From assembly GCA_016927565.1 (NCBI GenBank), contig JAFGMK010000006.1, forward strand, positions 1-37,941: 37,941 nucleotides of DNA, read 5' to 3'. The stretch comes from Minisyncoccota bacterium (GTDB lineage Bacteria; Patescibacteriota; Microgenomatia; PFEM01; JAFGMK01). A program made the position numbers and the translations under genes. Below, one piece after another: positions 1,835-23,154 of the stretch. Under the pieces are notes generated by a model. That model was not told where the DNA came from and made no database searches. It was given only the letters and a program-made list of their open reading frames with translations. Every line of letters starts with the position of its first letter. The stretch's first letter is position 1.

Positions 1835-3154
1835 GTGTTGGGTTGCATGGAAACTAACCAGCAACCGCCAACAAACATCAGATTTTGCCTTTATGCCAGG
1901 AAATCCTCAGAATCAGACGAAAGACAAGCAATTTCCATTAACTCCCAAGTCAAAGAAATGCTGGCAATTGCCAAAAGAGACAATTTAGCTGTCGGCAATA
2001 TTTATAAAGAAAGCCATTCGGCTAAAAAACGAGGCCAACGAGATATTTTCAACAAGCTAATAGCCGAAATTGAAAATGACCTCTATTCCGGTATTATCAC
2101 TTGGTCTGCTGACAGGCTTTCTCGTAATGCCGGCGATTTGGGAGTACTAATTGATTTAATGGATGAAGAAAAGCTAAAGCTAATTATCACTTACTCGCAA
2201 ACTTTTACTAACAACCCGAACGAAAAATTTCTCTTAATGATTTTAGGCAGTCAGGCCAAACTAGAAAACGATAACAGAAGCATCAATATAAAACGGGGAA
2301 TAAGAAATCAATGCCTGCTCGGCTATTGGCCCGGACCAGTTCCTTTAGGCTATTTTAGCAAAACAGTTAATGGAAAAAGAATAATTTACATTGATTCCAA
2401 GAGGGGCAAGTTTATTACCAAGATATTCCAAAAAGTTGCCGCTAGTTTACCGGTCAAAAAGCTTATTTTATGGATCCGTTCAGGAACAAGTTTAAGAAGT
2501 AAAAGTGGCAAACAAATCTCTAAAAGCACTATTTACAAAATGCTCCGCAATCCATTCTATTACGGCAGGTTTATATACAAAGGCATTGAATACCAGGGAA
2601 ACTATAAACCCCTAATTCCAAAAGAACTTTTTGACCAGGTTCAAGCAAAACTACGGCCATTTAGAAACACCTACAGCAGAACTACCGATAATTATTCTTT
2701 AGGTGAATTTCTCAAGTGTTCTATTTGCGGCTCTTCAGTCCATCGTCAAACTAAGCATAGAAAACTGAAAAATGGCAACACTCGCACCCGGATTTATTAC
2801 CACTGCAGTAAGCAAAAAGACAAGTTTTGTAATGTTAAATATATTTCTGAAGAAAACGTCCTTCAAGAAATTGCTAATCTTGTTGAATCAATTAATTTAA
2901 CTCAAATCCGATTTCCGGAAGAAATTAAAGAGGAGATTGCTCAATTTGAGCGTATGCGATGGGAGATTTACAAAAAAATGTCGGGCAGCCAAGTAAAATT
3001 CTCTATCTATCCGCTAGAATTTGAGGCAATTGACAAAGAAACAATCAGAATGTATCTCCAAAACATGATTTTGTACGATAAGCCAAGTAAAAAATATTAT
3101 TTAATTTCGTTGCTGCTTAAAAACTTTATGGAGATAAAACCATTACTTCTATGA
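1835..3154 (+). CDS. Large serine recombinase (resolvase N-domain, recombinase domain, zinc ribbon)
   Basis: CLYARKSSESDERQA catalytic Ser block, WSADRLSRNAGD, CSICGSS...YYHCS Zn ribbon. Confidence 0.95.
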   Translation: MLGCMETNQQPPTNIRFCLYARKSSESDERQAISINSQVKEMLAIAKRDNLAVGNIYKESHSAKKRGQRDIFNKLIAEIENDLYSGIITWSADRLSRNAGDLGVLIDLMDEEKLKLIITYSQTFTNNPNEKFLLMILGSQAKLENDNRSINIKRGIRNQCLLGYWPGPVPLGYFSKTVNGKRIIYIDSKRGKFITKIFQKVAASLPVKKLILWIRSGTSLRSKSGKQISKSTIYKMLRNPFYYGRFIYKGIEYQGNYKPLIPKELFDQVQAKLRPFRNTYSRTTDNYSLGEFLKCSICGSSVHRQTKHRKLKNGNTRTRIYYHCSKQKDKFCNVKYISEENVLQEIANLVESINLTQIRFPEEIKEEIAQFERMRWEIYKKMSGSQVKFSIYPLEFEAIDKETIRMYLQNMILYDKPSKKYYLISLLLKNFMEIKPLLL

Positions 3155-4567: not shown

Positions 4568-5548
4568 TCACCCAAATTTAAAATTCTCATCTGTATTATT
4601 TAGCTGCTTCAATAAAGCAGAATTAACTAGCTTAGGATGTTGTTTAATTAAATTTTGTAAATCCTTTCTTGACCTATCAGCAAAGTGGATTTGGTTATTG
4701 CTGATTGCTGTTTCCAAAATCAGATCAAACTGCTTTTTAGTGAATGAGTCAAATTCTGAAATCAAAGACGTTCTCCATTCCGAGGAAGCATATGAACGAG
4801 CTTTTTTTAGTGATTTAATAAGTAAATCAAGTACGATAGGTGCGCACCTTTGTTCGTTTTTGATTGCTTTGACAATTTTAATGCATTCTTTTTCTAATTC
4901 TTTAGACTTGAATTTTAATGCTTGATAAACGGAAAGAAATCCATGGGGATTAGGGCCGTTGTCAACGGAAACAGGAATAATTAGTTTACTTGTGATAAAT
5001 GCCATACCGGATTCTTGGTCCGTCCATTTTGACTCGTTAAATTCTGGAGTTATTATAGGGATGAAAACGTGGCAAGCTTTGAGATTGTCTATTATTACTT
5101 TTTGCCACTCCAAGGACGGCCTGATATCATCGTGTGCTAAAAACACATTAAAACCAAACTTCGACAGCCATCTTTTGATCTCTCCCGCCCCCTTTTTGTT
5201 TAAAGAAGAGTAGCTTATAAAAACTCTTATCTCATCTATTTTATCGTCTTTATTTTTAACCTGCGAGCGTTCCTGAATAAGATATTCCCTTTTATACTGT
5301 GCAATTATTTGCCTAATATAAACATCTATCTGTTCGGCAGCGTGTTTTCTGGTTTCTATGGGTATGCTTGGATAAAGGTGTTGGCTTAAACTTGTAAATT
5401 TTTTATATGAGTATCTTCTGCTTGTTTTTAACAAAGCATTAACTTCTGCTAACCAGTTTTTTGCGTCTTTATGTCCAGGGTCAGTGTAAAGCTGCTTAAC
5501 GTTAAGTAGCTTTAAATATTTTTCGAGTTCTTTGATCAGGTCCTTCAT
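4568..5548 (-). CDS. TIR-domain protein with helical N- and C-terminal regions
   Basis: IRVFISYSSLNKKGAGEIKRWLSKFGFNVFLAHDDI...SKWTDQESGMAF matches TIR signature including a plausible catalytic Glu. Confidence 0.88.
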   Translation of the reverse strand: MKDLIKELEKYLKLLNVKQLYTDPGHKDAKNWLAEVNALLKTSRRYSYKKFTSLSQHLYPSIPIETRKHAAEQIDVYIRQIIAQYKREYLIQERSQVKNKDDKIDEIRVFISYSSLNKKGAGEIKRWLSKFGFNVFLAHDDIRPSLEWQKVIIDNLKACHVFIPIITPEFNESKWTDQESGMAFITSKLIIPVSVDNGPNPHGFLSVYQALKFKSKELEKECIKIVKAIKNEQRCAPIVLDLLIKSLKKARSYASSEWRTSLISEFDSFTKKQFDLILETAISNNQIHFADRSRKDLQNLIKQHPKLVNSALLKQLNNTDENFKFG

Positions 5549-7541: not shown

Positions 7542-9041
7542 CTACTTTAATTGTTGTAATTCTTCTAAAATTCTTACCATGGCAAAAGTATCTAGGGTGC
7601 AGTATTTACTAAGGTCTGAAATTATTTGCTTTTTTTGTTCTTGATTTTTACCCTTTAGAAAAGTCTGGGTCCATGTTCTTCTGGAGGCTAAACCATCTGA
7701 AACCATTAATTCTTTATAACTTAAATCGGGGCAAAGAACCGGCAATACATTTTTAATTGAAGCGCTTCCAAAAAAATCTTTGTCAAAAAACCACATTTCA
7801 GAAAATAGAGTCATTAGATCCATTATTCTTTCGTTTAGTCTATCTAAAAATTCTTTGTATTCAGGATACAGATTGGCCATTCTCTCATTACATCCTTTTT
7901 CATAACTCATATTCCAAGTAAGTACAGTTCCTGTATCTCCAATGTCTTGTTTTAGTTTTTGTAAAAGGGCCGGCGTTGGATTTGAGTTTTCTTGATATAA
8001 ATATTCAGCGTGTTTTACCTCTGCTCCAGGAGAGTCGATAACATGAAGTGAATACTGGAACGGATAATCCTTGTATGGACTTAAGCCATCAAAATCAGGG
8101 ATTATAGACGAGAAGGTTTCATAATCAAAAAAATACAGTGGGTATTGAAAAGTGTCTAGAAACTCTTTTATTTTCTCTTTTTCAAGAATCCTTTGGTTTT
8201 CCCTCGTCGTTTTTACTTGAGCCAGTTGTTTATCTCTTAAGCATTCCTCATCAGGAATGTCTTTCAAGAAAGTAATTCCTGCGTCTTCAAGTTTACCAAT
8301 TTGCTCGGCACTTGGGTAACTGAGTGAATAAATACTGTAAGGATCTAAATTAGGATTTAAGCTCTTGTAGATATCAAGCCACTCGGCAAGCCAGTTAACT
8401 CTTGGCACTTCCAGTTGATTTGCAAAACGTAGGGAGAGGTCGGGCATCTTATTTTGGGCCAAAACATCAAAGGCTTTTTGAACCTGCTCTTCTGTAATCT
8501 CAGAGAGCGCATGAACGGCACCAGTAACATCCGTTTTTTGGGTAAGCTGAGCGGAATCAATATTTCCTTCCCGAACATATTCCCTGTTAGCATGAATTAC
8601 TGCTATGTTTCTTACTTTTATTCCGGCTTTTGTGAGAACAGCTAATTGAAACGCCAAATCATATTCATGTTCTGGTTTTGCCTTGCTTGAAGATTTTATT
8701 TCAATAAGATCAAAAGTATCTTTCGAAGCTCTATCAAGCACGTCAACAATACAAGTAATCCCATCTGCCTCAAATCTTCCCTGTAAAATGGTCTTTGCAC
8801 CAGCTTTCAGTGTCGCGGCAGTCCTTGCCGGCAAAGAAATATATTCATCGTAGCTACTAAATCCAAGCCTCGTCGCTTCCGGAAACAACTCTTCTGCGTA
8901 TTTTTCAAAATCATGCCCAACATCAAACATTTCCTGAGTAGCCTCGTCAATGGCCGGAAGTTTCTCTTTTTGGTACTTTTTCAGCCACAGCCACGCAGGA
9001 TGTCTTAAAAAAAGCATGTAGTCTGACTTTGAGAGGATCAC
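7542..9041 (-). CDS. DUF2779-type nuclease (PD-(D/E)XK plus DnaQ-like exonuclease region)
   Basis: N-term SKSDYMLFLRHPAWLWLKK, FDLIEIKSSSK, and YFFDYETFSSIIP. Confidence 0.8.
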   Translation of the reverse strand: MILSKSDYMLFLRHPAWLWLKKYQKEKLPAIDEATQEMFDVGHDFEKYAEELFPEATRLGFSSYDEYISLPARTAATLKAGAKTILQGRFEADGITCIVDVLDRASKDTFDLIEIKSSSKAKPEHEYDLAFQLAVLTKAGIKVRNIAVIHANREYVREGNIDSAQLTQKTDVTGAVHALSEITEEQVQKAFDVLAQNKMPDLSLRFANQLEVPRVNWLAEWLDIYKSLNPNLDPYSIYSLSYPSAEQIGKLEDAGITFLKDIPDEECLRDKQLAQVKTTRENQRILEKEKIKEFLDTFQYPLYFFDYETFSSIIPDFDGLSPYKDYPFQYSLHVIDSPGAEVKHAEYLYQENSNPTPALLQKLKQDIGDTGTVLTWNMSYEKGCNERMANLYPEYKEFLDRLNERIMDLMTLFSEMWFFDKDFFGSASIKNVLPVLCPDLSYKELMVSDGLASRRTWTQTFLKGKNQEQKKQIISDLSKYCTLDTFAMVRILEELQQLK

Positions 9042-9062: not shown

Positions 9063-10322
9063 TTATTTCTTTTTACTACTTTTTTCAAATGCTTTTGCAA
9101 CACTTGGACTATTGGCAGTTAGTCTCTTTATCGATAGATCATCTGCTTTATTATTTGCTAAACGTAAATTGTTATCGGATTTCAGTAAGTTTTCTTTAAC
9201 CTTGTTTAAGTGGTCTATCGTTTTATCAATCTCCTCTACTGCTTTGGCAAATTGCCTAGATGCTAAGTTATAATTTCTTGCAAATGCATTTTTAAATGCA
9301 TTCATGTTGTTTTCAAAGTTCGTAACATCAATATTTTGATTCTTGAGTCTTTGAATCTTTTTTCTAAGTTCTTGTGATTTTATATTTCCTTGCCGTAGGA
9401 AACCGATAATTGTAATAAAATGCTGTGGTCTAATTGAATACATACTGGGGTAATCAGTGACCGTTACGATATCATCATAAAACTCATTATCCTTCTCAAG
9501 AAGACTTACTAGAACAGCAAATTCACAATTTTTTTCCCTCCGATCCTTATCTAACTTTTTGAAAAAATCTTTATTTTTATGTTTGGATGCAGTAGTGTCA
9601 TCCTCGTTTTTCATCTCGAACATAATAGATAAAATTTCATTCCCATCTTCGTCAACCTCTCGATAAATATAATCTCCCTTTGAACCTGATTTAAATACGT
9701 TGTTATCCTTGCCAAATTGTGCATTGGGGAAAGCAAATGGACGTATCCTGTTAAACTCATTTTCGCAGTGTACTTCTAGAGACTCGCCGATCATTTTAGT
9801 ACTCATTCTTGAACGCATCTCTTTTAGAGATACTAGAGCAGTTTCACTTGCTTGTAATTTATCTTGTAGTTTTTGTTCACTTAGTTCTTTTTGATGTTTA
9901 ATCTCTTGAATTTCAAGCTCTTTATCACCCAGCTTCTTTCGATACTCTTTTTCTAGCTTTTGACGTTCCTCTAGAGATTTAACCTTGGTTTCAGATTTAA
10001 CTTGTTTTGTAATGCTTTCGAGTTTTGTGTTGAGTGCAGCTATTTCTTGATTTTTCTTCTCAAGTGCTTCTTTTGCTTTACTGATAATATCCTTTTCTTT
10101 AAGCCTGGCCTCGAGTTCTTTTTCTTTCGTTATGCTTCTTTTAGCTGCTTCAAGCCTTGAGTCAAATTCATCGGTTTCGATTGACTTAATGAGATTATCT
10201 ATTGTTGTTTTATCAATATCTGTTTCGTGTATTGATTTGAGATCAATAATGTCTCCCTTTTGAGCATCTTCTTGCAGTACCAGAGTATTCTTATCTTGGA
10301 TAGATACCTTAACTTTTTTCAT
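9063..10322 (-). CDS. DUF2130 family coiled-coil protein
   Basis: Long coiled coil followed by GESLEVHCENEFNRIRPFAFPNAQFGKDN...GSKGDYIYRE, typical of DUF2130. Confidence 0.85.
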   Translation of the reverse strand: MKKVKVSIQDKNTLVLQEDAQKGDIIDLKSIHETDIDKTTIDNLIKSIETDEFDSRLEAAKRSITKEKELEARLKEKDIISKAKEALEKKNQEIAALNTKLESITKQVKSETKVKSLEERQKLEKEYRKKLGDKELEIQEIKHQKELSEQKLQDKLQASETALVSLKEMRSRMSTKMIGESLEVHCENEFNRIRPFAFPNAQFGKDNNVFKSGSKGDYIYREVDEDGNEILSIMFEMKNEDDTTASKHKNKDFFKKLDKDRREKNCEFAVLVSLLEKDNEFYDDIVTVTDYPSMYSIRPQHFITIIGFLRQGNIKSQELRKKIQRLKNQNIDVTNFENNMNAFKNAFARNYNLASRQFAKAVEEIDKTIDHLNKVKENLLKSDNNLRLANNKADDLSIKRLTANSPSVAKAFEKSSKKK

Positions 10323-10394: not shown

Positions 10395-12266
10395 TTATCT
10401 GCCATTATTTTCTATCTCATTAAACATTTTGACTATGTCATCAGGAATATCATTTTTGTCGGTGATGTATTCTGTCATGTATCGCGCACAATCTTTTTTG
10501 GACGGTAAATAGTCTGTTCTATTTTCATCTTGATTAACTTTGTCGCGCAGCAGCTTTTCGAATTTGTTCTCAGATTCTTCTCCCAAATTAGACCTCATGT
10601 CTTTCAAATTCTGATCGCTCAATTCGACCCCGCATTTTTCTTTAACTAGTTTAATCCAGTATTTATCATCTATACTATCTTCCAGGTTATATTGTCCTAC
10701 CAGGAAAATATTGTCTCCGGATGCTTTTGTGTCGCTGTCCAGTAAATAATACACACAATCATTTGGGTCTTTGAAATCCTGCATCATCTTTTCAAATAGT
10801 TTTTTATTTTCAGTCCACCTGTGGCCTCCGCCTAAACCCACGAATTGTACGGAGTCATCTTCAATAGACCTATCAAAATAAAGTTTATAAAAGTGTGGTA
10901 TTAGAATTTCGTCTGAGTCGCCTTCGCCTGCAATAAATATATCGTAAAAAAGAAAGTCGCTATTTTTGATACCGAGACTATCATGGACATCTGACACTGA
11001 GGAACAACTAGTAACGGCAGTGTATTTATTTGCCAACTGAACCTTTTGAATCGTTTCTAATTGCGATTTATCGACAAATACCGTGGAATGAGTACTGATA
11101 AAAGTTTGAAAAACCCCGCCGGATAATTGCTTAATGATTTCGTAAAAACTTCTCTTTTCTGGAGGATAGAGGTGCACTTCTGGCTCATCAAAACCCCACA
11201 AAAACTTCTTAGCCTTTGCCTCGTCGTTTATCCCTTTCATAGCGCCAAGTCTCATAAACGCAAATCCTATTTGTTTTTTCACGCCATCACCCTGCGACTC
11301 AAGTCTTACGCTTCCATCAGAATGGCCTTTTTCGACTGATATTTCAGATATGCTCTCATCTGATTTAAAAAATACCTTCGCTTTAATAGCTGTAATCGTA
11401 GGTAATCCCGAGAGTATTTCTCCAATCTTTTTTTTTAATTCTTCATTAACTTTGCTTGTAGCCTCTTGACCTAACCGTTCAGCTTCTTCCTTAAGTTTTG
11501 TACCGTATTCATCAACGACTGTAGCCATAGTATCTTTTGCCATATTTTCAACACTCTTTAGAGTTATTTCTCGCCAATCGATATATCTATATATGGGAAA
11601 AAACTGTCGATCCTTTTTCGCAAAATCCTCGTAGGTAGACCATTGGTCTGAAGTGGCAAGTCGATTGTAGATTGCACGAAACTTCTCTATGTTTTTAAAT
11701 CTGCCTTTTTCGTTGTCGTTGATTATATCTTTATCAGAAATCCCAATATTCTTTATGAGCCTATTAAGGGTCGTTTGGTTTTGTTGCCAAAGCTGTTTTT
11801 TTTCATCCTTTGCGCATATTAGATATCTCCCAGCAGGAAATTGGTCGCTAAACTGCCTAATTAACACAATTTCTTCATCGGAGTAGCTTTCTATAGACCA
11901 CTTCAGATGATTTGAGGCAATCTCATCGAAATCTTCTTCAAAATCTCCGTCCTGTTTTTGAAATACTCCAACCACAACAATTGATTTTTCTCGTCCAGAC
12001 TCGAATAACGGAATATCCAACTGACTAAATATCTCTTCATATCTATCTGTCTCTATTGGAGTTGTAGATAAATCTGAGGTCTCGTGCCCTTCTTGGACTA
12101 AGTTGGGCAAGCTTTTTTCGTCCAGAAGCAATCCAATTGCCTTTAGTATAGTGGATTTCCCAGAATCAGTCTGTCCAATAAAAGTATTCGGGAGGCCCTC
12201 GTTAAATTTCAGGATCAAGTCTCTACAGCTTTTATAATTAATAATCGCAATTTTTTTCAAGTACAT
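10395..12266 (-). CDS. OLD-family ATP-dependent endonuclease (AAA ATPase + TOPRIM)
   Basis: GQTDSGKSTILKAIG Walker A, GFDEPEVHLYP, FIAGEGDSDEIL and LLDSDT TOPRIM motifs. Confidence 0.88.
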   Translation of the reverse strand: MYLKKIAIINYKSCRDLILKFNEGLPNTFIGQTDSGKSTILKAIGLLLDEKSLPNLVQEGHETSDLSTTPIETDRYEEIFSQLDIPLFESGREKSIVVVGVFQKQDGDFEEDFDEIASNHLKWSIESYSDEEIVLIRQFSDQFPAGRYLICAKDEKKQLWQQNQTTLNRLIKNIGISDKDIINDNEKGRFKNIEKFRAIYNRLATSDQWSTYEDFAKKDRQFFPIYRYIDWREITLKSVENMAKDTMATVVDEYGTKLKEEAERLGQEATSKVNEELKKKIGEILSGLPTITAIKAKVFFKSDESISEISVEKGHSDGSVRLESQGDGVKKQIGFAFMRLGAMKGINDEAKAKKFLWGFDEPEVHLYPPEKRSFYEIIKQLSGGVFQTFISTHSTVFVDKSQLETIQKVQLANKYTAVTSCSSVSDVHDSLGIKNSDFLFYDIFIAGEGDSDEILIPHFYKLYFDRSIEDDSVQFVGLGGGHRWTENKKLFEKMMQDFKDPNDCVYYLLDSDTKASGDNIFLVGQYNLEDSIDDKYWIKLVKEKCGVELSDQNLKDMRSNLGEESENKFEKLLRDKVNQDENRTDYLPSKKDCARYMTEYITDKNDIPDDIVKMFNEIENNGR

Positions 12267-15200
12267 TATTCTGCTATCCCCTTATCAATCTCTTCCATAA
12301 TGTTACCTGTCTCTTTGAGTACCACAATCATCTTTTGATAATGCTCAATATCCGGGTTCGTGAGAGTTCTATCTTTTCGGTCCTTTAACCATTTTTGAGC
12401 TGGCTGATAACCACCAATCCGGAAATTCCAAGCAACTTCCGGTACCTTGCCAAAATATTGCTCGTCGTTTATAAACACTTTTCCCTCTTTGTATTCTGGC
12501 TTTTTCTCAACGATATTACTTCCCGTGACCGGATAGGTAGTGGCAAATTTGTTTACTTTCAGTGATTCAAGCAGGTGTAATTCACGCAATTGTCTACCAA
12601 ATTTCACAAGCCTTTCAAAAGTCTTTTTATTTTTTGGATATGGAACCCTAGGAAAACCCTTTTTCAAAAATTCTTGATACGTCTTTCTATATCTGGGTGA
12701 GTATAAGACTGCATAAATATAATCAATAATATCCTCAGGAGAAACTTTACCAACAATTTTTTCTATCCTATCAACTATTTCCTTTTCAAGATTTGGTCTG
12801 CGGGACCCATCAGTATTATAAAAATAAAGAGGTAATACATAACCAATTTCACTGGTTTTATTAGACACTAGAGTCGACTCAACTATGTTTCGAGAAATAA
12901 AAACATGTTGATATGAATCGCTAGCTTTAACCTGTCGCAAAACAACTAAAGCCAAATTGTCTTTTATTAGATGGTTCATCACTTCGCCTCTTGGCATACA
13001 GTGAAAACCGCGAGAATTACCAGTATAAAATGTCCATCTTGTATCAAATGGTCGATAATCAATAGGAACTATCTTGTCTGCGCTGTAGTTTCCGATAACG
13101 TCTTTCTTTGCTAATTCAACTTTCCAATCTCTAACGTCTCTCCCCAAATTATATTTCGCGCGGAGAACTTCAGAATCAAAGACTTCAAAATCTCGGACTA
13201 CTTTAGCAATATCCTTTCTAGAATACTGGATAGACATTTTGTCACGAGCTGTTACTATCCCAACACTTGAGACTGGGAATAAAGCTTCCGTTGAAAAACC
13301 TTTTTCATAAACATCTCTTGTCTTTTTATCAATAACTATCCACTCATAATTTGGAGACAGAGGTTTTACTTTTTGCCACCTGATCGTATTTATGGCATTT
13401 TCATTTAAAAATGCGAATTTGCTTTTCCGGCTACCAAGAATATCAGCCCGATATATTTTGGAAAAGCTTTTCTTCTGATTAATTCTTTTTATGCCAACAA
13501 AAATAGCTACCCCTTGTTTAATGTTAAAAATATTTTTGTCAGGAGCTCCATCCGATGCTTTTTCTCTTTTATTAGCATTTCCATGCAGGTCCAAAACAAA
13601 TATCTCATTAAATGTCTTCATTAGGTGCCAACGCATACCACGAAACGTCGGGTTATCGATATATCCGTGGGCAGTGATCATGGCTACAATTCCCTCGCCA
13701 GTTCTCTCGATCATGCTTTCCGCAAATCGAATAAATTTTACATAGTCATCATTGAGCCATTTAGAATTTCTTTCCTTAAGCTTCCCGCCCGTAGGCTCTA
13801 GTTTATAAACGTCATGGCCATTGTAGTTTTTATTACTTGATTCACCAAAATATGGAGGGTTGCCAATTACAACCATGATTGGTTTTTTGTTTTTTATTTT
13901 CGAGGCCTCTTTTGATTCCTCAGCAATGCTTTCTGCCAAACCAAAAGCAGTAAGCAAATCTTGTTGTACGCTGGCCTCCTCCAACGAGTTAGTAAGATAA
14001 ATGCCCAAACGACGATTATTAAAGTACTTAAACCCCGTTTCTTTAAAAGCCATACTTAGCTTTAAGTGGGCAATAGTGTAAGGAGTCATCATCAGTTCAA
14101 AGCCGTATAGGCGAGGTAATAAATCGTGAAGTACATAAGGGTGCCAGCGTCCTTCTTGACCAGTTTTCCTTAGATGCTCAAAAATGTTGCGAATTACTTT
14201 ACTAATAAATGTCCCCGTACCTACAGCAGGATCAAGAATTTGAACCCTATGCAATCCTTTAACTGTTTTTGAGGTATCAGATAAACCGTCAGGCAGTTTA
14301 AACTCTTTCTTAAGAAGGCAGTCAACAGAGCGAACTATAAATTGAACCACGGGAAGCGGTGTGTAATAAGCACCCATTTCTTTACGAAGTTCTGGATCGT
14401 ATTCTTTTAGAAAGTCTTCATAAAAGTGAATTACCGGATCTGGTTCACTATGGGTTTCTCCCCATAAGTCAGTTTTATAATACTCCTTCATAAGCTCTTT
14501 GACATTTGCATGAGAAAAAACCTCACACATCTCGTCAACAATATATTCAAGCCGTCTATCAAAATTTGGCCCAACAATATGATCAAAAAAATGTCTCAAA
14601 AAAGGATTTGATTTAGGAATTAGATCGCGGGCTTCCTGTCGGGTAAAGTCTCCTTGAGACTTATCATTATCCCTAGCTGCAAAAAGGCCATAAACTAATG
14701 TTTGAGCATACATATCGGCAAAGGAATTTTTAGTCAGCTCATGAACAAGGAATTTTTTGATCGTCTCATAGACACGTAGAAGCTCTGCGTTTGTGTCCGA
14801 ATGTATTGAAAGGAATTGCCGAATATTATCTCTAATCCTTTGTGCCTTTCCTGCCATAATTTTAGCGAGATGTTTACCCGAAGTGATGGGCTCTTTTTGT
14901 GACTGAATAAAATCCAGAAGGGTTTTGGCAACGTGTCCATAACTTTCAGGGACGGGAGTGATTATTCGACTCCGTAAGTCGTAAATAGCTATTTTGATTG
15001 GTTCTTCGTAGCGGAGGCCATTTCTATAAAAACGAAATTCTACATAATCAGTAAGTACCAAATTTGTGTAGCCGTAATATCGACCCATCTGCTCTGATTT
15101 CTCGACTTTGTCCAAATTGATTCCTATATCCTTTGTTTCTATGTATAAAATAGGTATATCATTCTTAAGCACAACAAAATCAGGCTTATTGCCTTGTCTG

Positions 15201-15358
15201 GCTTTATCATCGTGACCGATACGCTTGACGTTAATTGATTCAAAAATTCCTTTAAGGAGTATCTCAAAATTAGTGCGATATCCCATTTCACTCGTTTCTT
15301 TGTGAGAAAACTTTGAGGAAATTGCTTGAATGTAATCGTTAAAATGTTGATTGGTCAT
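12266..15358 (-). CDS. Type ISP/IIG-like restriction enzyme with N6-adenine methylase domain
   Basis: PDFVV...LYIETKDIG nuclease-like N-term, LDPAVGTGTFISKVI motif I, VIGNPPY motif IV, large C-terminal specificity-like region. Confidence 0.92.
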   Translation of the reverse strand: MTNQHFNDYIQAISSKFSHKETSEMGYRTNFEILLKGIFESINVKRIGHDDKARQGNKPDFVVLKNDIPILYIETKDIGINLDKVEKSEQMGRYYGYTNLVLTDYVEFRFYRNGLRYEEPIKIAIYDLRSRIITPVPESYGHVAKTLLDFIQSQKEPITSGKHLAKIMAGKAQRIRDNIRQFLSIHSDTNAELLRVYETIKKFLVHELTKNSFADMYAQTLVYGLFAARDNDKSQGDFTRQEARDLIPKSNPFLRHFFDHIVGPNFDRRLEYIVDEMCEVFSHANVKELMKEYYKTDLWGETHSEPDPVIHFYEDFLKEYDPELRKEMGAYYTPLPVVQFIVRSVDCLLKKEFKLPDGLSDTSKTVKGLHRVQILDPAVGTGTFISKVIRNIFEHLRKTGQEGRWHPYVLHDLLPRLYGFELMMTPYTIAHLKLSMAFKETGFKYFNNRRLGIYLTNSLEEASVQQDLLTAFGLAESIAEESKEASKIKNKKPIMVVIGNPPYFGESSNKNYNGHDVYKLEPTGGKLKERNSKWLNDDYVKFIRFAESMIERTGEGIVAMITAHGYIDNPTFRGMRWHLMKTFNEIFVLDLHGNANKREKASDGAPDKNIFNIKQGVAIFVGIKRINQKKSFSKIYRADILGSRKSKFAFLNENAINTIRWQKVKPLSPNYEWIVIDKKTRDVYEKGFSTEALFPVSSVGIVTARDKMSIQYSRKDIAKVVRDFEVFDSEVLRAKYNLGRDVRDWKVELAKKDVIGNYSADKIVPIDYRPFDTRWTFYTGNSRGFHCMPRGEVMNHLIKDNLALVVLRQVKASDSYQHVFISRNIVESTLVSNKTSEIGYVLPLYFYNTDGSRRPNLEKEIVDRIEKIVGKVSPEDIIDYIYAVLYSPRYRKTYQEFLKKGFPRVPYPKNKKTFERLVKFGRQLRELHLLESLKVNKFATTYPVTGSNIVEKKPEYKEGKVFINDEQYFGKVPEVAWNFRIGGYQPAQKWLKDRKDRTLTNPDIEHYQKMIVVLKETGNIMEEIDKGIAE

Positions 15359-15984
15359 TTCTGTTTGATTACTTGGGTTACTTTCCCATTAATCATAAAG
15401 TTATCATTCATGTTAATAACAATTGGCGGGTAATTCTCATCACTTGATTCAGATAAGAGCAAAATCTGACTGTTCTTGGTATTCTTGACAAACTTTTTAA
15501 TATTGGCACAGTCATCGATAATCGATAAAACATAATCGTTATTTCTTGGAGTACGATCTTTATAATCAACGATTACAAAATCCCCGTCTTCAATGCTTTT
15601 ACCATTGATATCTGCCTTATTCATGGAATTGCCGATAGCGCGAAGGGCGAAAATGTTTCTATTTCTTGCCAGTAAGCTAGAAGAAACTTTAAGATGGCCT
15701 TGAATTTTGTCTTCGGCAAAAGCGCAAGCCTGGCCACAATTAGCGCAACCAAAAACAGGGATATTTGTCAATTTTGGTTGAAGAACCTTGGAAGCTTTAA
15801 TTGTTTCTAAAACATTAAGATTTTTATCTAATTTAAGGTGGCCTTTTTTCTGGAGCTGTTGGAGATGATGCTTAACCTTTTGGGGATGGTTGATACCTAC
15901 CATTTTCCCGATTTCCCTGAGGCTCAATTTAGACAGATCTCTGGTCTTGGCTATTCTTAAAAGCTGTCGCTGGGTTTTATGCAT
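15355..15984 (-). CDS. LexA/UmuD-type autocleavable (S24) transcriptional repressor
   Basis: N-term HTH; NCGQACAFAED Cys-Gly cleavage-like site, AIGNSMN catalytic Ser, ANIKKF catalytic Lys; start moved to 15984 because TATAAT lies at 15996-15991. Confidence 0.85.
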   Translation of the reverse strand: MHKTQRQLLRIAKTRDLSKLSLREIGKMVGINHPQKVKHHLQQLQKKGHLKLDKNLNVLETIKASKVLQPKLTNIPVFGCANCGQACAFAEDKIQGHLKVSSSLLARNRNIFALRAIGNSMNKADINGKSIEDGDFVIVDYKDRTPRNNDYVLSIIDDCANIKKFVKNTKNSQILLLSESSDENYPPIVINMNDNFMINGKVTQVIKQK

Positions 15985-15990
15985 GGCTCG

Positions 15991-16067
15991 ATTATACCAC
16001 AAAATCTAATCAAACCCAACAATCGTCAATTGACGCTCTTGACAGGATTTGGTATTTATGCTATTTT
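15991..16067. promoter_or_regulatory. Divergent promoter/operator region
   Basis: Plus: TTGACA (16039-16044)-17 nt-TATTTT (16062-16067). Minus: TTGGGT-17 nt-TATAAT (15996-15991). Perfect 12-bp palindrome CGTCAATTGACG at 16024-16035 between them. Confidence 0.75.
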
Positions 16068-16101: not shown

Positions 16102-16335
16102 ATAGGTTTTGATCAAGAAATAGTAATAACCGTTTGGCGGAAAGGACATTCTTCAAGCAAGTGGGATGCTAATGTCTGGCGAAAAGACGAGTTTGGCCAC
16201 TGGATGAAATTTCAAGACTACGGCGACAGAGATTCTAAATTCGGCTGGGAAATCGACCATATCAACCCCGATGGCGGTGACGGAATCGACAATCTAAGAC
16301 CACTTAACTGGAAAGTTAACGTAAGCAGAAATTAA
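16102..16335 (+). CDS. Small HNH endonuclease-like protein, apparent AUA start (not in the ORF track)
   Basis: Translation IGFDQEIVITVWRKGHSSSKWDANVWRKDEFGHWMKFQDYGDRDSKFGWEIDHINPDGGDGIDNLRPLNWKVNVSRN*; AGGAGG 7 nt upstream of ATA; no ATG/GTG/TTG in frame before 16204. Confidence 0.65.
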   Translation: MGFDQEIVITVWRKGHSSSKWDANVWRKDEFGHWMKFQDYGDRDSKFGWEIDHINPDGGDGIDNLRPLNWKVNVSRN

Positions 16336-16380
16336 AAATTAAAAAACCTGTTCGGCCAGGGAACCGAACTTAAATAACAG

Positions 16381-16413
16381 GACCCTAGTTTTTAAAGCTA
16401 GGGTCTTTTTTTT
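16381..16413 (+). terminator. Intrinsic terminator upstream of ParB-MTase gene
   Basis: GACCCTAG-N9-CTAGGGTC followed by T8. Confidence 0.88.
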
Positions 16414-16428
16414 GAAAGGAGAAAATTA

Positions 16429-17700
16429 ATGAAAAAATTAAATATCGTATACATTGATATAAATGTTCCTATTCCTAGTGAATATAACCCAAGAACAAGT
16501 ACTAAATTTCAAGAGGAAAAACTTGACGAAAGTATAGGTGAATTCGATATTGTTCAGCCTCTTATTCTAAATTCTGCTCCCAATAGAAAAAACAAAATTA
16601 TCAGTGGTCATTTTCGTTGGCGAGAGGCCCAAAAGTTAGGATTTAAAAAAATTCCGGTTGTGCATCTAAGTATCCCTGACATCGATAAAGAAAAAAGGCT
16701 AAATTTGACCTTAAATCGGGTTTCTGGAGATTGGGATTATGAGCTTTTGAAAAGTTTTAAAATCGAAACACTTCTTGAATCGGGATTCGACGATTTTGAT
16801 CTGACCCATATTTTTGACGAGGTTCTGAGTGTTCAAAATGATGACTTCAACCTCGGTCATGAAATTTCGAAGATCAAAAAACCAAAAACTAAACCCGGAG
16901 ACCTGATTATTCTTGGCAACCATAGACTCTCTTGCTCAGATAGCTTAAATCCCAAAGCAATCAATAAACTCGTGGGCGATCACAAAATTAATATGCTCAA
17001 TTACGACCCGATTTACAATATCGGATTAGACTATAACAAAGGGGTCGGGACGCAAGGAAAATACGGCGGAAAAGTTAATGATAAAAAAAGCGATTCGGAA
17101 TACCGGGAGTTTTTAAAAACCGCACTGCAAAACGGACTGGATCACTGCTTACCGGATGCCCATATCTTTTGTTGGTGCGATGAGAAGTACATGGGGATGC
17201 TTCAGAGTCTTTATTCAGAATTAGGCATAAGTAATAAACGGGTCTGTCTCTGGATTAAAAATAATTCTTCACCGACTCCCCAGGTGGCTTTTAGTAAGGT
17301 TTTTGAAGCCTGTGTCTACGGGACGACAGGCTCGCCTTATTTATCTTCCTCGGTACGTAACTTGAATGAAATTATGAATGAAGAAGTGGGGACCGGAAAT
17401 AGGTTAATAGATGACATTCTAGACCTCTTCAATATTTGGTTAGTGAAACGTTTGAGCTCACAAGATTACGAACACCCAACTCAAAAACCGCCGACTTTGT
17501 ACGAAAAAGCATTCCGTCGCTGCAGTCGGCCGGGAGATATTATTCTTGATCTCTTTGGTGGTTCGGGGAGTCAGCTTGTTGCGGCCGAGCAGTTGAAAAG
17601 ACGGGTGTTTCTTTCGGAAATTGAGCCTATTTTTTGTGATGTGATTGTCTCCAGATATGAAAAATTAGCTAAAAGAAAGGCTGTATATGTCAATTCATAA
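16429..17700 (+). CDS. ParB-like nuclease domain + DNA methyltransferase
   Basis: IVQPLILNSAP..KIISGHFRWREAQKLG ParB fold; YDPIYNIGL motif IV; DLFGGSGSQLVAAEQ motif I. Confidence 0.88.
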   Translation: MKKLNIVYIDINVPIPSEYNPRTSTKFQEEKLDESIGEFDIVQPLILNSAPNRKNKIISGHFRWREAQKLGFKKIPVVHLSIPDIDKEKRLNLTLNRVSGDWDYELLKSFKIETLLESGFDDFDLTHIFDEVLSVQNDDFNLGHEISKIKKPKTKPGDLIILGNHRLSCSDSLNPKAINKLVGDHKINMLNYDPIYNIGLDYNKGVGTQGKYGGKVNDKKSDSEYREFLKTALQNGLDHCLPDAHIFCWCDEKYMGMLQSLYSELGISNKRVCLWIKNNSSPTPQVAFSKVFEACVYGTTGSPYLSSSVRNLNEIMNEEVGTGNRLIDDILDLFNIWLVKRLSSQDYEHPTQKPPTLYEKAFRRCSRPGDIILDLFGGSGSQLVAAEQLKRRVFLSEIEPIFCDVIVSRYEKLAKRKAVYVNS

Positions 17701-18430
17701 AAATGAAATTTACCAACTAGGGCCACATTTGCTAGCTTGTGGGGATGCCTTGAATCCTGAAATTGTTAATAGACTTATCGGAAAGAAAAAGATTCCGTTA
17801 GTTTTAAGTGATATGCCCTATGCTATTGGCCTTGTTGAAAACAAGGTCGGGTTTAACCAAACAGGAAACAGAAAAAGGATAATCAATGATCATTTGCAGT
17901 CCGATGAAGAATATATGGTCTTCACTAAAAAATGGCTGGAATTAGTTAAGCCGCATTTAGCAGATAAAAATTCCTTTTATTTGTTCAACTCAGACAAAAT
18001 GATTTTTGCTATGCGAGAGGCAATAATTAAAGCTGGCTTTAAATTCTCACAACTTCTCATCTGGGTTAAAAACCATTCGGTTCTTGGCCGAATGGATTAT
18101 CTTGTCCAGCACGAGCTAATTGCTTACGGCTGGTATGGTACTCATAAATTTCAAAAGTCGCAGGATAAAACAGTCCTACTATGTCCTAAGCCCAACAAAA
18201 GCCCTCTTCATCCTACTATGAAACCAGTAAGTCTTCTTCGAAGACTGATTTTAAACAGTTCCAAGATTAGCGATTGGGTATACGATCCTTTCGCTGGATC
18301 TGGGAGCTTAGTAATAGCCTGCGAACAGACAAGAAGAAAAGCACTTCTTATCGAAATTGATCCCGATTACTGCCAAACGACAATTAACAGATTTGAAAAA
18401 TTTACTGGTATTAAAGCTAAAAAATTATGA
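17687..18430 (+). CDS. DNA methyltransferase, paralogous to the preceding MTase domain
   Basis: LLACGDALNPEIVNRLIG...SDMPYAIGL, HPTMKPVSLLRRLI, YDPFAGSGSLVIACEQ. Confidence 0.88.
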   Translation: MSIHKNEIYQLGPHLLACGDALNPEIVNRLIGKKKIPLVLSDMPYAIGLVENKVGFNQTGNRKRIINDHLQSDEEYMVFTKKWLELVKPHLADKNSFYLFNSDKMIFAMREAIIKAGFKFSQLLIWVKNHSVLGRMDYLVQHELIAYGWYGTHKFQKSQDKTVLLCPKPNKSPLHPTMKPVSLLRRLILNSSKISDWVYDPFAGSGSLVIACEQTRRKALLIEIDPDYCQTTINRFEKFTGIKAKKL

Positions 18431-18846
18431 ATAAACAAAAAACTACCATAAGAAAAAGAGTTAAAAATGATCAAGAGTTGATAATTAGTCAGCTTAAGAA
18501 AACGCCGATCATCCAAATTGCTTGTGAAAAAACCTCTATTGGCAGAAGCACTTATTACAGATGGTTAGAGAAATGTCCTGATTTTGCCAAAAAGGCAAGA
18601 GGGGCAATTAAAGAAGGAGAAAGCTTAGTTTCGGATCTAGCAGAATCACAGCTTATATCGGCAATAAGAGATAGAAATCTAACCTCGATAATTTTCTGGC
18701 TAAAAAATCATGATCCTGTATACAGCGATAAGGTTGAGTTGACCACTTCAAGAAATGAAGAAGAAAAACTAACCCCTGAACAGCAAAAATTAATCGAAAA
18801 AGCGCTGGCCATGTTAAAAGATGATGACATCCAAAAAAAGGACTAA
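18427..18846 (+). CDS. Terminase small-subunit-like HTH protein
   Basis: IIQIACEKTSIGRSTYYRWLEKCPDFAKKAR HTH; directly upstream of terminase large subunit. Confidence 0.7.
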   Translation: MNKQKTTIRKRVKNDQELIISQLKKTPIIQIACEKTSIGRSTYYRWLEKCPDFAKKARGAIKEGESLVSDLAESQLISAIRDRNLTSIIFWLKNHDPVYSDKVELTTSRNEEEKLTPEQQKLIEKALAMLKDDDIQKKD

Positions 18847-20437
18847 TTTTATGGATATTAATAGTAAAATATTTAAAGCAATTATCAAAAACCGTCTAAT
18901 CAGAAAGACGCTGGCAAAGCTTAGTCATTATTACTTCTTCCACATATATCTTGCTCATCATATTCAATACGAAACCGCTCCTTTTCAAAAGGAAATAATA
19001 TCAATCACCGAAAACTTTAAACAGAAGTTTGCTATTCTCCTCGCCTTCCGTGGGTCTGCCAAGTCGACTTTAGTTTCTCTCTCATATACCATTTGGTCAG
19101 TAATTGGTAAGCAAAATCTTAAATTCATCCTTCTAATCAGTCAAACTCAAGGGCAAGCCAGGCAGCTACTGGCTAATATTAAAAGTGAATTCGAGTCAAA
19201 CGAGTTATTAAGAAAAGACTTTGGCCCTTTTGAAGACTCAAATGAGATTTGGAGATCAAATTCTCTGGTTTTGGCTCGATACAAATCCAAAATCATGGCA
19301 GCCTCTTTGGGCGAAAGCATTCGCGGCTATAAACATGGACAGTACCGGCCTCAATTAATAATTCTTGACGATATTGAGGACAATAACTCCATAAGAACAA
19401 AGGATAGCAGAGACAAAACATATAACTTTGTAACTAGCGACGTGATCCCGGCTGGTGATATCGAAACAAAATATCTTCTAGTAGGAAATCTTTTACATTC
19501 CGACTCAGTAGTTATGCGCTTTAAAAATGAGATTGAGGATGGCGATCGTGATGGGATTATTAAAAAATATCCTTTTTGGGATAAAGATAAAAAACCACTT
19601 TGGGCTACGAAATTTAACACAAAGAAATCTATCGAAAAACTCAAAAAAAGAGTCGGGAACGATAAAATTTTTAGACAAGAGTATTTGCTTGAAATCGTAT
19701 CCAACGAAGAACAGGTAATCGAAAGAAAATGGATTCAACGGTATGATAAATTGCCTCTTTTTGTGGGAAACGGTTATCGATATACAGCGATTGGAGTCGA
19801 CTTGGCCATTTCTGATAAAGATTCTGCTAATTTCACCTCTTTTGTTGCCGCTCATGTTTTTGGTCGTGGCGAAAACCTAAAAATATATATTCTTCCGCAC
19901 CCGGTAAACAAAAGAATGAAATTTTCAGAAACAGAAGACCAACTAAAGGCTCTGGTTGAAAGTCTTGGAGGTAAAGAACGAGTGAAAATTTACATTGAAT
20001 CCGTTGGATACCAAGAAGCTTTTGCTCAAAGAATGAGTCAATTGGGATACTATGCATACGGAGTTAGCGTTCATAGCGCCTCGAAAAGAGAAAGGTTGCT
20101 ATTCGTTTCAAACACGGTCAGAGCAGGCAAATCGGTCTTCCCTCCATCAGGTACTAGCGAACTTGAAGATCAGATGGTTAACTTTGGCGTTGAGAAATAT
20201 GATGATCTTGCTGACGCGTTTTCGATCTTGATCAAAAAAATAATGGAGGAGGACAAACAGTCAGATGGACCTATTATCGTCAGATCATCAGGTCTTTATC
20301 AATCAGTTCAGATAAATAGACACTGTTACACCAACCATCTTGGTTTAATGAAAAAAGATTGGGCAGACAGAGAGGATCAAGAAATTTTCAAAAAATACGG
20401 GATGAAGAATCCTCGGAGAATCTACGGGCTTCCTTGA
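18821..20437 (+). CDS. Phage terminase large subunit
   Basis: LAFRGSAKSTLVS Walker A, QLIILDDIEDN Walker B, IGVDLAISDKDSANFTS and KYDDLADAFS nuclease motifs. Confidence 0.92.
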   Translation: MMTSKKRTNFMDINSKIFKAIIKNRLIRKTLAKLSHYYFFHIYLAHHIQYETAPFQKEIISITENFKQKFAILLAFRGSAKSTLVSLSYTIWSVIGKQNLKFILLISQTQGQARQLLANIKSEFESNELLRKDFGPFEDSNEIWRSNSLVLARYKSKIMAASLGESIRGYKHGQYRPQLIILDDIEDNNSIRTKDSRDKTYNFVTSDVIPAGDIETKYLLVGNLLHSDSVVMRFKNEIEDGDRDGIIKKYPFWDKDKKPLWATKFNTKKSIEKLKKRVGNDKIFRQEYLLEIVSNEEQVIERKWIQRYDKLPLFVGNGYRYTAIGVDLAISDKDSANFTSFVAAHVFGRGENLKIYILPHPVNKRMKFSETEDQLKALVESLGGKERVKIYIESVGYQEAFAQRMSQLGYYAYGVSVHSASKRERLLFVSNTVRAGKSVFPPSGTSELEDQMVNFGVEKYDDLADAFSILIKKIMEEDKQSDGPIIVRSSGLYQSVQINRHCYTNHLGLMKKDWADREDQEIFKKYGMKNPRRIYGLP

Positions 20438-20719: not shown

Positions 20720-21793
20720 ATGGCGATCATCATCTCAAAAAACGGCAAAAACGCAGTCAAAATCGATAAAAGCAATTTCAAACTGGAAGATCATCTTCAA
20801 CAGTATATCTATGACAACCCGGAAAGTATTCCCCTTTATGAGATTAAAGAAGACATTCGGCTTTTGATTCTGGCCAGAGAGTTTTCTACTAAAAGCGGAC
20901 CAATTGACGCTTTAGGGATAGACAAAGATGGCGAGATTTATCTGGTGGAAACAAAGCTTTACAAAAACCCAGATAAGAGAACCGTGGTGGCTCAGGTTCT
21001 GGATTATGGCGCTTCTCTCTGGTCAAATTACCGTGATTTTGCTGACTTTATCGAGCAAGTCGGAATTCATACCAACAAAGATTTTAACCAAACCTTAGGT
21101 CAAAGACTAGGCGAATTCTTTGGTATTTCAGAAGATGAAACCGATACCCTCCTAGAAAATACCAGAAGAAATTTAAGTGACGGTAATTTTAAATTCGTAG
21201 TCTTAATGAACCACCTTCATCCGCAATTAAAAGACTTAATCATTTTCCTAAACAACAACAGCGAATTTACGGTTTATGCGGTTGAATTGGAATACTATAA
21301 ACATCAGGATTTTGAAATCCTGATTCCCAAACTGTACGGTTCAGAGGTTAAAAAAGACCTGGGCAAATCAACTTCTTCAAGGATTGTTCCAGCAGACGAG
21401 GAGTTTTTAAATAGCTACAAGGATAGGCCGGAAATGGATAAGGTAAGAGAGTTACTGGAGTTTAAAAATGAGATTAAAGAAAACCCGGAAAAGTTTCCCA
21501 ATATCTTAGCTTCAAAATCACCTAAATATCTGAATTTCTACACGGTTACCTCGTTTGAAGATAAAGTTTCAATTAATTTGCCGATGAATCCGGAAGCTGA
21601 AGGCGGCGGTTTACAGATCTGGATCACCGATAAGAATAAAGATGGGGCTAATAAAGTACTCAACAAAAAAATCATTAAGTACGAAAGAATTCCTTCTAAG
21701 GGAAAACAATACGGGAAAGTAGCCAGGGTGGAATTAAAAGATCTATCAATTAGCGACTTTGAACGTTTTTTAAGAGAGTTGGCAAAGATTTAA
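20720..21793 (+). CDS. PD-(D/E)XK nuclease-like protein (NucS-like N-terminus)
   Basis: GPIDALGIDKDGEIYLVETKLYKNPDKRTVVAQVLDYGASL. Confidence 0.75.
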   Translation: MAIIISKNGKNAVKIDKSNFKLEDHLQQYIYDNPESIPLYEIKEDIRLLILAREFSTKSGPIDALGIDKDGEIYLVETKLYKNPDKRTVVAQVLDYGASLWSNYRDFADFIEQVGIHTNKDFNQTLGQRLGEFFGISEDETDTLLENTRRNLSDGNFKFVVLMNHLHPQLKDLIIFLNNNSEFTVYAVELEYYKHQDFEILIPKLYGSEVKKDLGKSTSSRIVPADEEFLNSYKDRPEMDKVRELLEFKNEIKENPEKFPNILASKSPKYLNFYTVTSFEDKVSINLPMNPEAEGGGLQIWITDKNKDGANKVLNKKIIKYERIPSKGKQYGKVARVELKDLSISDFERFLRELAKI

Positions 21794-21843: not shown

Positions 21844-23154
21844 GTGTTGACAATGGATAACCAAACTCAGGAGACACCGATTAACTACTGCTTATATGCC
21901 CGAAAATCCAGCGAATCAGACGAACGGCAAGCAATGTCGATTGGTTCCCAGATTAAGGAAATGAAAGACTTGGCCAAAAGGGACAAACTTAATATTATTG
22001 ACGTTTATCAAGAAAGCCACTCAGCTAAAATCTCCAACACACGGCCAATCTTTGGCAAACTCCTAACTGATATCGTTCAGGGGAAATTCAACGGTATTTT
22101 AGCCTGGGCGCCGGACAGGTTAAGCCGGAATGCCGGAGACTTAGGAATGTTAGTTGACATGATGGACCAGGGGAAACTTCTTAAGATTAAAACTTATTCT
22201 CAAACTTTTTCTAATAATCCAAATGAGAAATTTTTGTTAATGATACTTTGTAGTCAGGCAAAACTGGAAAACGATCAAAAAGGAGAGAATGTAAAAAGAG
22301 GGATTAGAGCAAAATGTGAGCAAGGATGGCGACCAGGCATGGCACCTCTTGGATATTTTAACCGAGCGCATGCCGGGACTAAAGACATTATTATTGATCC
22401 CAAACAAGGGCCATTAGTCAAAGAGGCTTTTGAAAAAGTTGCTTTCCAAAATTGGTCGGGTAGAAAATTAAAAGAGTGGTTTGACAAAGTCGGGTTTGCT
22501 AATCGTTCAGGGAAACTAGCGACTCTGAGCCAAATTTATTTGATGTTAAAAAAACCATTTTATTACGGCAGGTTTGAATATCCAGAAGGAAGCGGCAATT
22601 GGTATCAGGGAGCTCATGAGCCATTGATTACCAAAAAACTTTTTGACAAAGTCCAGGAAAAATTAGTGGTTCCTAAAAAATCAAAGTGGGGTAGCCGGAA
22701 TGTACTTTTCAGAGATGTTTTTAAATGTGCCAGTTGCGGAGCAACAATAACCGGAGAAGAAAAGTTCAGGAAAAGAAAACAGGGGAATCCGAGAAGACAT
22801 GTTTATTACCAGTGCGCTAAGGCCAGAAACAAAAAATGCAAAGAAGTAATGCTAAGCGAGAAACAGCTAATCGGAGCACTAACAAGATATGTCAATTTTA
22901 TGAGCCTACACCATCCTCAAAAGATAAAACTAACCCACAAAGTAAAAACCGGTATGGAAACATACCGGAAAATCCGGGAGCAAGTATTGTTGCTTAAGGA
23001 TATTAATCCCGGCTCAGAAGAAATTTCATTTACTGAATACGCCAAGTATGTTCTCCGGGACGGATCTAACGAGGAAAAAAGGGAAATCGTCAAAGTATTC
23101 GGCAAGTATCTCTACATCCACGATAAGGAAGTTTGTTCGGCCCCAATAAGTTAG
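21844..23154 (+). CDS. Large serine recombinase, second copy
   Basis: CLYARKSSESDERQA, WAPDRLSRNAGD, CASCGAT...YYQCAKARNKKC; clearly homologous to 1835-3154. Confidence 0.95.
   Translation: MLTMDNQTQETPINYCLYARKSSESDERQAMSIGSQIKEMKDLAKRDKLNIIDVYQESHSAKISNTRPIFGKLLTDIVQGKFNGILAWAPDRLSRNAGDLGMLVDMMDQGKLLKIKTYSQTFSNNPNEKFLLMILCSQAKLENDQKGENVKRGIRAKCEQGWRPGMAPLGYFNRAHAGTKDIIIDPKQGPLVKEAFEKVAFQNWSGRKLKEWFDKVGFANRSGKLATLSQIYLMLKKPFYYGRFEYPEGSGNWYQGAHEPLITKKLFDKVQEKLVVPKKSKWGSRNVLFRDVFKCASCGATITGEEKFRKRKQGNPRRHVYYQCAKARNKKCKEVMLSEKQLIGALTRYVNFMSLHHPQKIKLTHKVKTGMETYRKIREQVLLLKDINPGSEEISFTEYAKYVLRDGSNEEKREIVKVFGKYLYIHDKEVCSAPIS

Follow-up and report, generated by a model that had tools for sequence, protein, structure and literature searches.

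The locus

The window, that is, the whole stretch of DNA analysed here (37,941 nucleotides, positions 1-37941), is the beginning of a 150,754-base contig in a Patescibacteria genome of 1.19 Mb. A LexA-like, probably autoproteolytic repressor of 209 aa, assigned by Pfam, alignment and fold, is encoded on the minus strand (15355..15984, ATG start), and its start is fixed at 15984 because the MHxxQ N-terminus is kept in the orthologues, which makes a TTG extension to 16002 unlikely. The repressor stop overlaps by 4 nt with the gene for a type IIG restriction enzyme-methyltransferase (12266..15358, minus strand; PADLOC 1e-292, Type_ISP_C 4e-87), which in turn overlaps by 1 nt with the gene for an OLD/AriA/GajA-like ATPase-TOPRIM protein (10395..12266, minus strand; PADLOC AriA 1e-30, Old 2e-30), and these overlaps indicate that the three genes form one operon. 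After the OLD-like gene come minus-strand genes for a DUF2130 protein (9063..10322), a Cas4/DUF2779 RecB-like nuclease (7542..9041) and a ThsB-like TIR-domain protein (4568..5548).

Across a 117-bp intergenic region, the first rightward feature is an HNH-like ORF (16102..16332, plus strand; GWEIDHI...NLRPLxW; PHROG 1035, 9.5e-6), also recognized by its homologues L094_1, L095_12 and L099_11, which adjoin orthologous repressors. It has a good GGAGG with no in-frame ATG, GTG or TTG behind it and a C-terminus shorter than that of its relatives, and may either begin with ATA or ATT or be decayed. A strong intrinsic terminator or possible attenuator (16379..16407, plus strand; z -4.0) follows and ends about 22 nt before the gene of a ParB_N plus N6/N4 DNA methyltransferase (MTase) protein (16429..17700, plus strand; PHROG 498, 3e-85); an Rfam search of this leader/attenuator gave nothing near any gathering score.

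The plus-strand genes continue with a second N6/N4 DNA methyltransferase found by domain search (17687..18430), the terminase small subunit TerS (18427..18846; PHROG 309, 7e-11, and alignment), the large subunit TerL (18821..20437; PHROG 38, 1e-70, and alignment) with ATPase and nuclease motifs intact in the alignment, a NucS_C-like nuclease or candidate defence protein (PDC-S11; 20720..21793) and the large serine recombinase of the module (21853..23154). A second serine recombinase (1847..3154, plus strand), lying 20 kb away in the same orientation and 43-49% identical to the first, may mark the other end or be a relic of another element.

The repressor protein

The repressor matched Peptidase_S24 (PF00717, 2e-19, 69.6 bits) and LexA_DNA_bind (PF01726, 2e-6, 27.9 bits with a cut-off of 23.7), and features a wHTH at residues ~3-60, a cleavage bond at Cys83-Gly84 and a Ser120/Lys163 dyad. 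The NCGQA motif and the Ser and Lys residues named in the original prediction were all verified in 15355-15984 of the minus strand, and in the alignment of 32 orthologues Cys83 is conserved in at least 90%, Gly84 is invariant and Ser120 and Lys163 are nearly so. The designation of the protein as UmuD-type held in part. UmuD also has a Cys-Gly cleavage bond (PMC8565304) and an S24 domain, but it forms part of a polymerase and lacks a DNA-binding domain, whereas the protein here has a wHTH and adjoins an operator-like region, so that the term fits the bond and not the whole protein; a UmuD identity was rejected on account of the N-terminal wHTH.

The best matches of the sequence among solved structures were LexA, and a Foldseek search with the AF2 model (pLDDT 87.6) returned full-length LexA on top (E 3e-12), including DNA- and RecA-bound forms. 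The scores against TIGR00498 (88.5 bits) and PRK10276 (53.9 bits) stayed under the curated lexA equivalog cut-off of 110.95 and the cut-off of 110, respectively. The repressor is described here as a LexA-type protein (wHTH plus S24) that is probably self-cleaving. A RecA gene is present in the same genome, together with a further LexA-type protein (contig 8, C8:20435-20776), which features the usual IAAG bond and a higher-scoring S24 domain. The tree of the 32 repressors is poorly resolved at depth and supports only locus L044 as the nearest relative (93/90), and the phage (INPHARED) and plasmid collections contained weak S24 matches only and no orthologue of the repressor.

Operator-like array and divergent promoters

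The perfect palindrome CGTCAATTGACG is indeed located at 16024..16035, as had been claimed, and occurs once in the 1.19-Mb genome. A palindrome of this length is weak evidence by itself: there are 15 perfect 12-bp ones in the window, and one arises in 3.8% of the shuffles of the intergenic region. Its expected recurrence at orthologous loci was observed for a GTCAA half-site array and not for the exact sequence, since both the 12-mer and its 10-bp core are absent from all other orthologous loci fetched, and the exact palindrome was accordingly discarded as a conserved operator. The half-site GTCAA/TTGAC is found in three copies within 20 bp of the window, a packing equalled in 2/20,000 intergenic shuffles. 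The operator proposed from half-site enrichment and geometry is GTCAA-N4-GTCAATTGAC in minus-strand reading (16024..16044), composed of an outer pair GTCAA-N9-TTGAC and the inner palindrome, and the region reads TGTCAA-gagc-GTCAATTGACG on the coding strand of the repressor.

Both promoters that had been predicted around the palindrome could be located in sequence, with unequal outcomes. The minus promoter of the repressor/defence operon has an extended -10 (TGgTATAAT; TATAAT at 15991..15996, minus strand, preceded by TGG) and a weak -35 TTGGGT (16014..16019, minus strand) at a spacer of 17. This -10 sits 6 nt before the repressor ATG (6-8 nt in the majority of orthologues whose -10 is clear), and the mRNA is therefore probably leaderless. 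The plus promoter, TTGACA(16039-16044)-17-TATTTT(16062-16067) with a TGn (16039..16067, plus strand), exists as a sequence, but the intergenic region holds no more consensus promoter matches than chance would give (5 against 6.0 expected). The palindrome itself is placed between the two divergent genes, on the upstream side of the minus -35; it is the neighbouring outer half-site that coincides with the plus -35.

Half-sites upstream of repressor orthologues

In the 110 bases upstream of the 32 orthologues, GTCAA was counted 31 times with 3.4 expected (~9-fold enriched) and TTGAC 25 times with 3.8 expected, and convergent GTCAA/TTGAC pairs with spacers of 0-16 reached 12 versus 0.08 expected, six of them at spacers 9 and 10. 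Four of the seven direct pairs in these regions have the form GTCAA-N4-GTCAA (period 9). Three control sets, consisting of distant LexA-type genes, 362 other genes from MTase/TerL loci and 33 MTases without a repressor, gave GTCAA densities of 0.7-1.0/kb versus 8.8/kb upstream of the orthologues, and convergent pairs in 4%, 0% and 0% versus 31%. L044 preserves the geometry of the window as TTCAAgtttGTCAATTGtAC with a divergent HNH, and L042 shows the arrangement GTCAAgagtGTCAAaTTGAC; the spacing is otherwise variable, and 8 of the 32 upstream regions contain neither GTCAA nor TTGAC. L134 has none of these half-sites although its repressor belongs to a satellite-type locus.

It could be argued that the half-sites are merely the -35 elements (TTGACA) of two divergent promoters next to a chance palindrome, with the repressor binding elsewhere. 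TTGACA is the sigma-70 -35 consensus, the window is rich in palindromes of equal length, TTGAC is common upstream of distant LexAs as well (7.0/kb), and in about half of the orthologues it is the repressor's own -35 with a spacer of 16-18, for which reason only GTCAA counts as independent evidence. GTCAA, however, has the wrong orientation for a repressor -35, is enriched to the extent given above, and is present even when the preceding gene runs in the same direction (L108/L007 and L091/L041), which makes it more than a divergent -35; together with the improbably tight packing of three half-sites, this leaves the explanation by -35 elements very improbable.

The proposed operator lies just upstream of the weak minus -35, whereas the half-sites bracket the -35 in most orthologues. 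The site in the window is one turn further upstream, with a spacer of 27 to the minus -10 versus 16-18 in the orthologues, making direct autorepression less certain here. Judged from the position of the site relative to the two -35s, a bound repressor is expected to shut the plus promoter directly, whereas its effect on the minus promoter is less certain. The same geometry, with the outer half-site serving as the plus -35, would suit an operator that mainly represses the plus promoter, the repressor/RM operon being expressed weakly or constitutively from the extended -10 like the lambda CI maintenance promoter. Such a restriction to the right side is considered distinctly unlikely, as the bracketing of the repressor's own -35 in most orthologues points to autoregulation as the ancestral mode.

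Genome-wide, GTCAA-N0-14-TTGAC was found 28 times versus 32 for the reversed-pattern control, and with the pairs at this chance level the array is read as a local switch; a genome-wide SOS regulon acting through this site was excluded by the same count.

Defence operons headed by repressor orthologues

The operon-heading orthologues have mostly defence or toxin genes downstream, as tallied in a reading of some 20 loci that had no matched controls. These include a CD-NTase (L091), ThsB-TIR with SLATT (L070), a Pycsar-like guanylate-cyclase domain (L037), type I and IIG RM (L099 and L038), Vsr with C5 methylases (L093), a C5 methylase (L110), OLD (L071), a caspase-like protease (L104) and TPR-GreAB-PIN (L094). 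In 7 of 27 orthologue loci no co-directional downstream gene was found within 150 bp.

At L108:9284-12325, a close orthologue precedes a CBASS set of CD-NTase, HORMA and AAA genes that resembles type III CBASS. MazF/PemK follows the repressor of L039 and, by clustering, those of L096, L097 and L100; the repressors of these four loci (L039:5001-6109 for the first) carry a C-terminal tail of ~40 aa, with the PemK/MazF toxin gene directly behind, and such tailed proteins are possibly self-cleaving LexA-like antitoxins.

The packaging module

Relatives of TerL were detected in 37 of 380 genomes of the phylum and in 37 IMG/VR loci. The 18 phage-type loci encode a portal in 18/18, a head protease in 13/18 and a major head protein in 9/18, whereas by PHROG identities none of the three was found in any of the 63 satellite-type loci; as the split was first made on a portal-sized ORF, the portal count is partly circular, while the other clusters are unaffected by it. 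Of the 61 satellite-type loci that remained once two duplicates were removed, 58 have the MTase, 52 have TerS, 50 have a serine recombinase and 12 have an S24 repressor, and the absence of this repressor from most of them means that other regulators must exist. Genome G514 holds such modules plus one phage-type locus. Several satellite-type loci lie in IMG/VR contigs, which does not imply packaging. As a separate observation, MTase-TerS-TerL-serine recombinase islands without portal or capsid (including L181-L215) carry variable cargo.

The island in the window resembles a phage satellite by its gene content. Phage satellites comprise PICI, cfPICI, P4-like elements, PICMI, VEIMEs and tycheposons (definition in PMC11389934), and defence hotspots are described in P4/P2 (PMC9122126). 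An integrase, phage-type packaging genes, an incomplete virion set and defence cargo are shared with the island, which differs in having TerS and TerL without capsid or portal, a large serine recombinase, a ParB-MTase and Patescibacteria hosts; cfPICI, by contrast, encodes capsid genes.

The terminase module might instead be a decayed prophage remnant and the switch a relic of a prophage immunity region. The HNH-like ORF with its missing start codon and the second recombinase would agree with decay, as would the searches for the ends of the island: looking for att sites among long direct repeats in the window yielded nothing beyond the two recombinase genes and repeats at chance level, and in the empty-site search only one other genome among 40 had the left-flank gene (37% identity), so that neither island boundaries nor an empty site were found here. 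Decay is nonetheless judged fairly improbable, because 61-63 loci share this gene set, all lacking portal and head genes and with frames mostly open, a recombinase is kept in 50/61, and the phage-type loci with related TerL all retain the portal.

Repressor and module point away from each other in the window and in L104, L109, L135, L130, L133 and L134, and in the same direction in L036; the layout 'cargo < repressor | MTase-TerS-TerL-recombinase >' is thus seen in five or more further loci. Whether one switch serves both sides, as the original prediction proposed, is answered in part: an operator-like array with defence on one side and packaging on the other is present in a recurring layout, but the terminator at 16379-16407 stands before the MTase and the HNH-like ORF is without a usual start. 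With this terminator ahead of the MTase, control of the packaging genes would need read-through or antitermination, and control of the packaging side by the plus promoter is the weakest step of the proposal. Terminator-like hairpins precede the MTase in 25/44 other satellite-type loci versus 35/176 for other genes (with a loose T-run criterion), which may point to packaging genes controlled by antitermination or attenuation.

The terminator and the hairpin enrichment also fit a repressor that governs its own defence operon only, with packaging expressed separately through terminator read-through or another signal and with a divergent layout due to modular assembly. In line with this alternative, many orthologues have no packaging module beside them and are just the first gene of a defence or toxin operon, and no S24 repressor was detected in 49 of 61 satellite-type loci. 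It is thought unlikely, though by no means far-fetched, since the operator overlaps the plus -35 and not the minus -10/-35 and the divergent layout is found repeatedly.

A proposed damage-responsive switch compared with known systems

The satellite-like defence island is most plausibly, though with real room for doubt, controlled by a RecA-inducible, autoregulated LexA-type switch. The starting points read from the sequence are the protein architecture and catalytic residues, the recurrence of the half-sites and of the divergent layout, and the presence of RecA. DNA binding, RecA-dependent cleavage, induction and helper-phage packaging are what we infer from them. In this proposal, the LexA-like self-cleaving repressor would bind the GTCAA/TTGAC half-sites at 16024-16044 and, being the first gene product of the defence operon, would repress that operon with its type IIG RM and then OLD-like ATPase genes. 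Sitting on the plus -35, it would also silence the divergent side, that is, the HNH-like ORF followed by MTase-TerS-TerL-recombinase. Once RecA filaments form, self-cleavage at Cys83-Gly84 would abolish the DNA-binding dimer and both sides would be released, with rightward transcription still having to pass the terminator.

What keeps defence operons silent and how they spread is still poorly understood, particularly in hard-to-culture Patescibacteria. If the proposal is true, one self-cleaving repressor at the head of many unrelated defence systems would couple immunity to DNA damage with no need for a ligand sensor or an additional protease, and the recurring capsid-less terminase module would be a candidate carrier of defence genes across the phylum. 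A search of the open literature for Patescibacteria satellites with a terminase, or for defence under LexA-like control in these bacteria, returned nothing. A wider generalization is offered only tentatively, as one that may well fail: satellites with TerS, TerL and a serine recombinase but no capsid would be spread phylum-wide in Patescibacteria, some of them with a one-protein LexA-like switch that frees defence and packaging jointly on DNA damage, and repressors of this family would independently head CBASS, ThsB-TIR, cyclase and RM operons.

Control of defence operons by a dedicated regulator is known from the WYL proteins BrxR (PMC9122601) and CapW (PMC9122588). Like them, the repressor is encoded beside diverse defence operons (RM, CBASS, ThsB-TIR/SLATT, cyclase, OLD and MazF among its orthologues) and has a palindromic promoter site. 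BrxR and CapW sense a ligand by WYL, whereas the repressor would act through S24 self-cleavage with DNA damage/RecA as the likely input, and no WYL domain was found in it, PF00717 and PF01726 being the only matches.

Protease-repressor pairs of the CapH/CapP and ImmR/ImmA type bring about proteolytic de-repression of defence or mobile-element genes. De-repression by proteolysis would be common to these pairs and the present repressor, which differs as one self-cleaving protein in place of two. An ImmR-like element regulator is described in PMC10233336.

With LexA, the SOS repressor of E. coli, Thermotoga and Patescibacteria, the repressor shares the wHTH and S24 fold, the Xaa-Gly scissile bond, the Ser-Lys dyad and a site upstream of its own gene, but it has Cys for Ala at the bond, a score below the lexA cut-off, another half-site and no SOS regulon. 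Its mode of action would be that of LexA/CI. The score under the equivalog threshold and the chance-level outcome of the regulon test set it apart from LexA itself, and the missing WYL domain sets it apart from the WYL regulators, so it is classed here as a LexA-like variant. The SOS response of Patescibacteria has reportedly been studied before. Upstream of the chromosomal-type Patescibacteria LexA in L024, L025, L032 and L033, a direct-repeat-like box TTCGGGT...TTCGTGT was observed, which differs from the GTCAA half-site.
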